Below are positions 13,043 to 14,232 of a stretch of DNA of 40,059 nucleotides, one piece after another. Source of the stretch: Chloroflexi bacterium ADurb.Bin180 (GTDB taxonomy: Bacteria > Chloroflexota > Anaerolineae > UBA2200). Numbering within the stretch: the first letter of the stretch is position 1; the number at the start of each line of letters is the position of its first letter. The notes under the pieces are model-generated. The model worked only from the letters and a program-made list of their open reading frames with translations. It searched no databases and had not been told where the DNA came from. The stretch covers positions 1 through 40,059 of the forward strand of contig MWCV01000022.1 of NCBI GenBank assembly GCA_002070215.1, read 5' to 3'. Made by a program: the position numbers and the translations under genes.

Positions 13043-13813
13043 CTAGCGTCTCTTGCTGGCCGCCGCCTGCCGGATGATCGGCACGAACTTGGCGGCGACG
13101 AGACTGGCGCCGCCCACGAGAGCGCCGTCGATCTCGGGTTGGCTCATGAATTCAGAGATGTTGTCGGGGCTCACGCTTCCGCCGTACTGAATGCGCACTG
13201 ACTGTGCTGCGTGGGCACCATAGAGCTGGTTAATGGTACCGCGCACGGCGGTGCCAATGGTGCGGTTGGCGAGGTTGCCAGTGGCAGCCTTGCCTGTGCC
13301 GATTGCCCAGATGGGCTCGTAGGCGATGACCAGACCACTGACCTGAGCCGCCGCCAGGTCCGCCAGGGCGGCGCGAACCTGGCCGCTGACCACTGAATCA
13401 GTCAGACCAGCCTCGTTCTGGGTCAGGTTCTCACCCACGCAGACGATGGGGATAAGGCCATGCTTGAGCGCGGCCTTGACCTTGCGGTTCACGGACTCGT
13501 CGGTCTCACCGAAATACTGGCGACGCTCGGAATGGCCGATGATCACATACTGGCACAGTTCCTTGACCATCAGGGGCGAGACCTCGCCAGTGAACGCTCC
13601 CTGGTCCTCCCAGTGCATATTCTGGGCTCCCACTCTGAGGCCTGTGCCCTTCACCAGCTCGGCGACGACGCTCAGGCTGGTGAACGGCGGGCAGAGCACG
13701 CACTCGACCTCGCCCACCGCATCCAGGTCAGAGCGCACTTCGCGCACCAGAGTTGCGGCTTCGGTGACGGTCTTGAACATCTTCCAGTTGCCAGCGATGA
13801 TCGGCTTGCGCAT
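13043..13813 (-). CDS. tpiA: Triosephosphate isomerase
   Basis: Interconverts dihydroxyacetone phosphate and glyceraldehyde-3-phosphate in glycolysis. The 256-residue TIM barrel has the catalytic Lys in AGNWKMFK, His in IGHSERR, Glu in AYEPIWAIGTG and the phosphate loop YGGSVSPDN. The ATG at 13813 is preceded by AGGAGG with four-base spacing; the longer open frame upstream crosses the promoter and its hairpin and is not coding. The gene has its own promoter and is separated from the pgk-apgM group by the tRNA nucleotidyltransferase gene. Confidence 0.98.
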   Translation of the reverse strand: MRKPIIAGNWKMFKTVTEAATLVREVRSDLDAVGEVECVLCPPFTSLSVVAELVKGTGLRVGAQNMHWEDQGAFTGEVSPLMVKELCQYVIIGHSERRQYFGETDESVNRKVKAALKHGLIPIVCVGENLTQNEAGLTDSVVSGQVRAALADLAAAQVSGLVIAYEPIWAIGTGKAATGNLANRTIGTAVRGTINQLYGAHAAQSVRIQYGGSVSPDNISEFMSQPEIDGALVGGASLVAAKFVPIIRQAAASKRR

Positions 13814-13869: not shown

Positions 13870-13888
13870 AGCGCCACAACGTGGCGCT
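13870..13888 (-). promoter_or_regulatory. Stem-loop at the predicted 5' end of the tpiA transcript
   Basis: An eight-base inverted repeat (AGCGCCAC, three-base loop, GTGGCGCT) lies where the tpiA transcript is predicted to start (about 13887). It could be a 5'-end stabilising hairpin or an operator. The sequence shows the symmetry; the role is inferred. Confidence 0.4.
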
Positions 13889-13893
13889 CCGTC

Positions 13894-13922
13894 ACTATAC
13901 CACAATCTAGAGTTGCTGCCAA
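13894..13922 (-). promoter_or_regulatory. Promoter for tpiA
   Basis: On the minus strand TTGGCA (13917-13922) and TATAGT (13894-13899) are separated by 17 bases. The predicted start is about 13887 and the leader to the ATG at 13813 is about 74 bases. Confidence 0.6.
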
Positions 13923-13934
13923 TGCCACGATGAC

Positions 13935-14178
13935 GAGAGTGTGGAAAAAGCGGGCGAGAGATGGGAGCACCCTGGTGCCTGTGCCTGGTAGTGCCAGGAC
14001 TCCGGGCAACTACAGGCCTCGATAGGTTCGTAGTACAGGCTTTAGCCTGTCCCCACCCACTGACGCGATGAGACCGTCCGGAAGGGGAGCGCTAAAGCGC
14101 CTCTTCGCAGTAGCTCAGAGACCTACGGCAACTACGAACCTGTCGTTCACGCTCCCTGGGCAGTTATTCCACACTCTC
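13935..14178. repeat. Palindrome-rich non-coding repeat element with 12-bp terminal inverted repeats
   Basis: This fills most of the 449-bp gap between tpiA and the tRNA nucleotidyltransferase gene and has no credible reading frame. GAGAGTGTGGAA at 13935-13946 is matched by its exact reverse complement at 14167-14178. Inside lie an 11-bp inverted pair (AGGTTCGTAGT 14024-14034 and ACTACGAACCT 14131-14141), a direct repeat GGCAACTAC (14005-14013 and 14127-14135), and hairpins CCTGG-N5-CCAGG (13984-13998), ACAGGCT-TT-AGCCTGT (14035-14050) and GCGCT-AA-AGCGC (14089-14100). This nested symmetry is typical of REP/MITE-like elements. No target-site duplication directly abutting the ends was seen, so mobility is an inference. 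Confidence 0.55.
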
Positions 14179-14203: not shown

Positions 14204-14232
14204 TTGACAAGACCCCCTTGGTGAGCCATAAT
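14204..14232 (+). promoter_or_regulatory. Promoter for the DHH-CBS-PAP gene
   Basis: A consensus TTGACA (14204-14209) and CATAAT (14227-14232) with a 17-base spacer, the best -35 box in the window. The predicted start is about 14239, giving a short leader of roughly 24 bases to the TTG start codon at 14263. Confidence 0.65.

Follow-up and report, generated by a model that had tools for sequence, protein, structure and literature searches.

A 244-bp MITE upstream of tpiA in a Chloroflexota genome, and the probable guidance of its insertion by promoters

Between the divergent genes tpiA and a tRNA nucleotidyltransferase gene, a stretch of 40,059 nucleotides of Chloroflexi bacterium ADurb.Bin180 (contig MWCV01000022.1; the whole stretch is called the window below) carries a non-coding block of 244 bp. 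The question raised by this locus is what kind of element the block is, and how it came to lie next to promoters. In an earlier note, made from the sequence alone, it had been described as a REP/MITE-like element located just upstream of the promoters of both genes. The features of the locus are reported here, with positions relative to the window.

13935..14178, + strand: complete MITE copy, 244 bp; the same termini occur in 19 full-length or nearly full-length copies of its own genome
13935..13949, + strand: left terminal inverted repeat, GAGAGTGTGGAAAAA; the ends of the autonomous insertion sequence C67:188-1628 match it
14164..14178, - strand: right terminal inverted repeat, reading GAGAGTGTGGAATAA on the - strand
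14024..14034, + strand: left arm of the inner inverted pair, REP-like module AGGTTCGTAGT; the module is also found free in the genome
14131..14141, - strand: right arm of the inner inverted pair, REP-like module
13043..13813, - strand: tpiA; above the cut-off for TIGR00419, with PF00121
14263..16890, + strand: tRNA nucleotidyltransferase gene of the A-adding type; best match NF041569, below its cut-off; PolyA_pol, CBS and DHH domains
13917..13922, - strand: predicted tpiA -35 box, TTGGCA, with its first base at a distance of 13 bp from the edge of the element; TTGGCA is also present in the G001 gap
13894..13899, - strand: predicted tpiA -10 box, TATAGT, after a 17-bp spacer
14204..14209, + strand: predicted -35 box of the tRNA nucleotidyltransferase gene, TTGACA, 26 bp from the element edge; TTGACA is also present in the G001 gap
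14227..14232, + strand: predicted -10 box of the tRNA nucleotidyltransferase gene, CATAAT, after a 17-bp spacer

The inverted and direct repeats described in the earlier note are present. Exact terminal inverted repeats of 12 bp (GAGAGTGTGGAA) occupy 13935-13946 and 14167-14178, and extend to 15 bp with one mismatch; the 11-bp inner inverted pair, also exact, is located at 14024-14034 and 14131-14141, and a script-based repeat scan places the 9-bp direct repeat GGCAACTAC at 14005 and 14127. When folded, as that note had proposed, the block turned out better than every one of 200 dinucleotide shuffles on either strand, with z values of -5.1 and -4.8. An exact inverted pair of 12 bp was found in 198 of 3,000 shuffles, a crude count which includes self-palindromes and is therefore an unfair null for two separate arms. 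The block contains neither an internal ORF of at least 80 aa nor a transposase gene. That it is a real unit is decided by its repetition: a search for further copies revealed at least 44 matches in its own genome, with 40 of 87 first-look candidates scored, and 19 copies align over 13935-14178 at full or nearly full length, one being 6 bp short at a contig end and one having a changed first base.

The genome in question (G000) is a 95%-complete draft of 3.13 Mb in 170 contigs. Copies fall into length classes of about 215, 244, 248 and 277 bp, differing by interior segments of 29 and 33 bp, and many lie at contig ends, as expected of repeats, which break an assembly. The terminal repeat GAGAGTGTGGAAWAA, allowing up to 2 mismatches, has 119 matches in the genome against 8 for the reversed control, and is common to several element types. 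Target duplications of 5-9 bp were found at 18 of the 24 end pairs examined, compared with 0.8 on average for re-paired flanks; the window copy is among the six pairs that lack one. The block is a complete MITE of 244 bp. A MITE pattern search of the genome contig collection, which may omit this genome, gave no match. A second MITE type, of about 190-226 bp, was observed at L035, L042, L043, L054, L055 and L063 (contigs C12, C13, C28, C21, C8 and C9); its ends and inner module are those of the window MITE, its outer arms are different, and the copy on C12 resembles a hybrid of the two. L035 and L042/L043 (C12, C13, C28), which share the inner module, had been considered as a candidate autonomous element, and turned out to be further MITE types of 220-226 bp.

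As for the composite designation REP/MITE-like, its MITE half stands, on the basis of the copies, the common termini, the target duplications at most paired copies, the absence from this place in the same-genus genome G001 and the existence of an insertion sequence with matching ends; its REP half holds only for the inner module. The interior consists of an inverted pair of REP-like hairpins (GGTTCGTAGT plus the GCTTTAGC hairpin). REP and REPIN elements are typically formed by an inverted hairpin pair with adjacent GTAG/CTAC, and the inner module resembles them in the inverted hairpin pair, in the adjoining GTAG/CTAC and in its additional occurrence as free arrays. The MITE differs from them in having the outer ends, the duplications and the copies of a DDE element, and no cognate Y1 transposase was identified for it. 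Free arrays of the GGTTCGTAGT and GCTTTAGC module are located at C47:11849-12334, C9:11886-12559, C26:18285-18577 and C60:112-259 (L083-L086), the C47 array with a 93-bp period. A search for REP-type transposases detected in the genome one Y1 gene (PF01797; L070, 1285-1860, contig C36), which was rejected as a partner: a different REP, AGACTTCGGAAGTCT, borders it on either side. No Y1 transposase cognate to the inner module was found in the 95%-complete draft. A REP-like element may have been captured by the MITE, or the MITE by a REP-like element.

The search for an IS transposase, the other kind of partner that had been proposed, revealed an intact DDE transposase. It is encoded by an autonomous insertion sequence of 1,441 bp, C67:188-1628, whose ends (GAGGGTGTGGAATAA and GAGAGTGTGGAATAA) match the MITE termini and which is associated with an 8-bp duplication, CATGTGGG. 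Its open frame of 395 aa contains DUF772 and DDE_Tnp_1 (PF05598, PF01609), a domain content shared with the IS5/IS1182 group. The protein reaches 145.9 bits against NF033581 (IS5_4), above the cut-off of 140, and 186.8 bits against NF033551 (IS1182), below the cut-off of 270 and yet with a better E-value than for NF033581. Residues D164, D268 and E326, assigned by us to the D-D-E triad, are invariant across three aligned transposase proteins; a transposase of genome G194 is 58% identical, and plasmid relatives are 24-29% identical among the matches listed. As suggested by the shared ends, the MITE is probably mobilised in trans by insertion sequences of the C67 type. A Mutator-type transposase (PF00872), considered as an alternative partner, has no match in the genome. 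The transposase search of the genome contig collection returned 42 pattern stretches, none of them a relative by its test, and an AlphaFold model built from three sequences was discarded at a mean pLDDT of 43. A second insertion sequence of the same genome, with the left end GAGAGTGTTGAAAAA, is found in pieces at contig ends only; its N-terminus is half identical to the C67 transposase over 28 residues.

The location just upstream of promoters, pointed out in the earlier note, proved to be the important feature, with the window copy at 13 bp from the predicted tpiA -35 box and many family copies at a near-fixed promoter distance. That note had also suggested a look for empty sites. In G001, a genome of the same genus, tpiA and the nucleotidyltransferase gene are adjacent, with no element between them, and the two promoters can be recognised; divergence of the gap prevents a base-exact definition of the insertion point. 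A perfect 8-bp hairpin (AGCGCCAC/GTGGCGCT) was also observed at 13870-13888 of the window, where the tpiA transcript is predicted to have its 5' end.

Promoters were scored as TTGACA-N16-19-TATAAT with at least 9 of 12 matches, and are thus consensus matches, not measured start sites. In the own genome, 108 ends were collected from fetched loci by a slightly wider pattern than the one with 119 whole-genome matches, 100 of which were listed; 98 ends were used, after leaving out 5 with a flank shorter than 75 bp, 4 flanked by another element and 1 chance match. Outward promoters of the sigma-70 type are present in 51 of the 98 flanks, against 3 inward ones and a shuffle mean of 1.1. In 38 of the 51, corresponding to 38/98 flanks, the first base of the -35 box lies 10-16 bp from the element edge, the mode being 13 bp (12 flanks), against 0.23 flanks in dinucleotide shuffles; among 4,186 intergenic positions preceding long frames, 26 (0.6%) satisfy the same criterion. 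When insertions with both flanks available are considered, such a promoter accompanies 16 of 22, in 1 of them on both sides, and is missing from the other 6. Promoter-side flanks are little conserved beyond the two hexamers, except for a G at the seventh base which is seen in the own genome and is absent in relatives, and the promoter is therefore not part of the element. Distances peak at 13 bp, with few beyond 17 bp, in the own genome as in the relatives and in the G005 and G066 stretches described below. For the insertion sequence with the GAGAGTGTTGAAAAA end, a promoter at 10-16 bp lies next to 6 of 11 ends at the transposase start and next to 1 of 8 presumed other ends, which are of the GGAAAAAGAGGG type; this may reflect an orientation bias.

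Relatives of the transposase were detected at E 1e-20 in 10 of 396 genomes of the class, i.e. in nine genomes besides the own one. At their transposase loci, ends were found within three mismatches of GAGAGTGTKGAAWAW. The pattern GAGRGTGTKGAAWAW, with up to one mismatch, has 5 to 257 matches per genome in the nine genomes, while the reversed pattern gives 0 to 3; the corresponding values for G224 are 5 and 3. From loci L105-L190, 116 of 118 ends were used, G084 being represented by 73 of about 188 ends, mainly where both ends are among the matches listed. A promoter at 10-16 bp, an interval chosen on the own genome and applied here after the first relatives had already been looked at, is present in 37 of the 116 flanks, with a mode of 13 bp (17 flanks), against 3 for the reverse strand and 0.93 for dinucleotide shuffles. 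At any distance, 52 flanks contain an outward promoter and 11 an inward one. Leaving out the best sampled genome, 17 of 43 flanks still fall within the interval; 53 of the 73 flanks in G084 have no promoter there, and in G224 the count is 0 of 2. Target duplications accompany 27 of 43 paired end sets, against a mean of 0.7 with re-paired flanks. Short MITEs, about 90 bp long and amounting to little more than two terminal repeats, were observed in G084 (e.g. L151-L185). Their ends are of the same kind, and they reach a high copy number, with 188 end matches in the genome.

For two genomes, whole 20-kb stretches rather than picked places were evaluated, covering 400 kb of G005 and 278 kb of G066, with ends partly overlapping the 116 above. 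In G005, 7 of 29 ends have a promoter at 10-16 bp, none has an inward one, and the background is 1.4%; such a promoter is found at 5 of 13 paired insertions and is missing at the other 8. The G066 stretches gave 8 of 12 ends, 1 inward promoter, a background of 1.6% and 3 of 3 paired insertions, with a target duplication in 0 of these 3. Among 400 sampled genomes of the phylum, 4 besides the own one gave a transposase match at E 1e-40: in G409 an end-like sequence lies 14 bp from a TTGACA-17-TACAAT promoter, and the other three are ambiguous. A scan for back-to-back elements, in which loci L231-L236 were included for this purpose only, detected ends separated by 6-8 bp at five places. In four of them, two with a degenerate left end (L165 and L174, both in G084), the bases in between are identical to the duplication beyond the second element's outer end; in the fifth (L230) the right element runs off the contig, leaving the far side outside. 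This suggests that the same few bases were used twice at the four places.

Taken together, the preferred reading, to which a probability of about 0.85 is assigned, is that of a non-autonomous MITE which a DDE transposase (DUF772 and DDE_Tnp_1 domains, IS5/IS1182-like) moves in trans and whose insertion is guided by the promoter. The case for guidance is carried by the distance peak. The transposase of an insertion sequence with matching ends would move the MITE preferentially to sites at which an outward predicted -35 box begins about 13 bp from the edge. Since the duplications next to the edge measure 7-8 bp and the -35 box starts at 13, the staggered cut would fall 4-5 bp upstream of the -35 box, roughly at -42 to -49 in the usual numbering; an insertion there would leave the promoter intact and do little harm. 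The guide could be the -35 DNA, read by the transposase itself, or the RNA polymerase holoenzyme sitting on the promoter. The former is slightly favoured, on account of a few -35 boxes which lie at the same distance and lack a -10 box, while polymerase docking would fit the mainly one-sided placement (1 of 22 insertions in the own genome is two-sided). Such -35 boxes at 10-16 bp, some of them TTGACA-like at 11-14 bp, number 3/14 in the own genome and 8/27 in the relatives, and a full promoter may not be required for insertion. Conversely, -10 boxes with a poor -35 were found at 33-38 bp in 5/9 and 7/34 cases, respectively, and the two sets of counts are not decisive as to the part of the promoter that is read. 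An inward TTGACA peak at 14-15 bp in the relatives (12/48) is attributed, by our reading, to TTGTCAA being nearly its own reverse complement.

Other explanations have to be weighed against guided insertion. If the block were a fixed control region or regulatory RNA serving tpiA and the tRNA nucleotidyltransferase gene, its strong fold on both strands and its position between two predicted promoters would be accounted for. Over the block, no Rfam family was detected at the gathering threshold, many copies exist elsewhere, none of the 40 relatives searched contains a match, and the element is missing from the same gap of G001, so that this explanation is extremely improbable; the MITE reading, for which a lack of copies together with conservation at the same place had been named as the refutation, survives. 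Insertion might instead be random, with selection purging copies from genes and promoters and sparing those just upstream of -35 boxes, in agreement with reports that insertion sequences often lie in promoter regions, under 100 bp from genes (PMC9208149). Random insertion followed by selection should spread distances broadly past the -35 box and does not readily explain a peak at 13 bp with few beyond 17 bp, nor does it fit the background of 0.6-1.6% computed for upstream intergenic positions in three genomes, or the repeated use of the same bases suggested at the four back-to-back places; we consider it unlikely.

Slightly less credit still is given to the idea that copies are kept at this spacing by the help that an element end provides to the neighbouring promoter, for instance through an A-tract acting as UP element. 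A/T tracts do occur about 10 bp inside the edge at both element ends. Nevertheless, promoters are faced by both ends of the MITE (13/24 and 9/26), the same distance is found for full insertion sequences and for MITEs with other interiors, and most paired copies have exact duplications, which points to insertion in the fairly recent past.

In comparison with known systems, the element is similar to MITEs in general in being short and non-coding, with ends matching those of an insertion sequence, target duplications and many copies; it differs from them in the near-fixed insertion distance from the -35 box and in the inner REP-like module. Within the IS5/IS1182 group (NF033581, NF033551, PF05598, PF01609), the C67 transposase is below the NF033551 cut-off for IS1182, a family whose member IS1272 reportedly takes the place of inverted repeats and makes no duplications (PMC5678879). 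The IS5 element of E. coli shares with the present family the insertion upstream of promoters, e.g. at bgl (PMC8836124, PMC11043490); its insertions in promoter regions have been linked to a destabilised (SIDD) DNA region, and a near-fixed distance from the -35 box, as found here, was not found mentioned there (PMC8836124). Among open-licence PMC papers, mostly represented by titles and the first part of abstracts, none was found to describe insertions that keep a fixed distance to -35 boxes. A MITE whose parent is IS5/IS1182-like is ordinary, and the fixed promoter distance was not found described in this limited search.

Target choice by bacterial transposons is mostly known to rely on short motifs, attachment sites, DNA structure or replication. 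Guided by Pol III factors, the yeast Ty1 and Ty3 elements integrate upstream of Pol III genes, keeping a preferred distance and sparing the genes; the family described here is like them in the preferred upstream distance and differs from them, which are retroelements directed by Pol III factors, and no homology is claimed. That a family of insertion sequences and MITEs, spread over many genera, prefers a near-fixed point of sigma-70 promoters, at about -42 to -49, through recognition of the promoter or of the polymerase, seems somewhat better than an even bet. If true, a DDE element tied to the transcription start site would solve the 'do no harm' problem in a different way, and would be a bacterial counterpart of the Pol III-guided yeast elements. 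The elements would then lie beside many promoters, able to rewire expression. They could be put to use as an in-vivo promoter finder, as a natural promoter marker in uncultured genomes and as a tool for guided integration.
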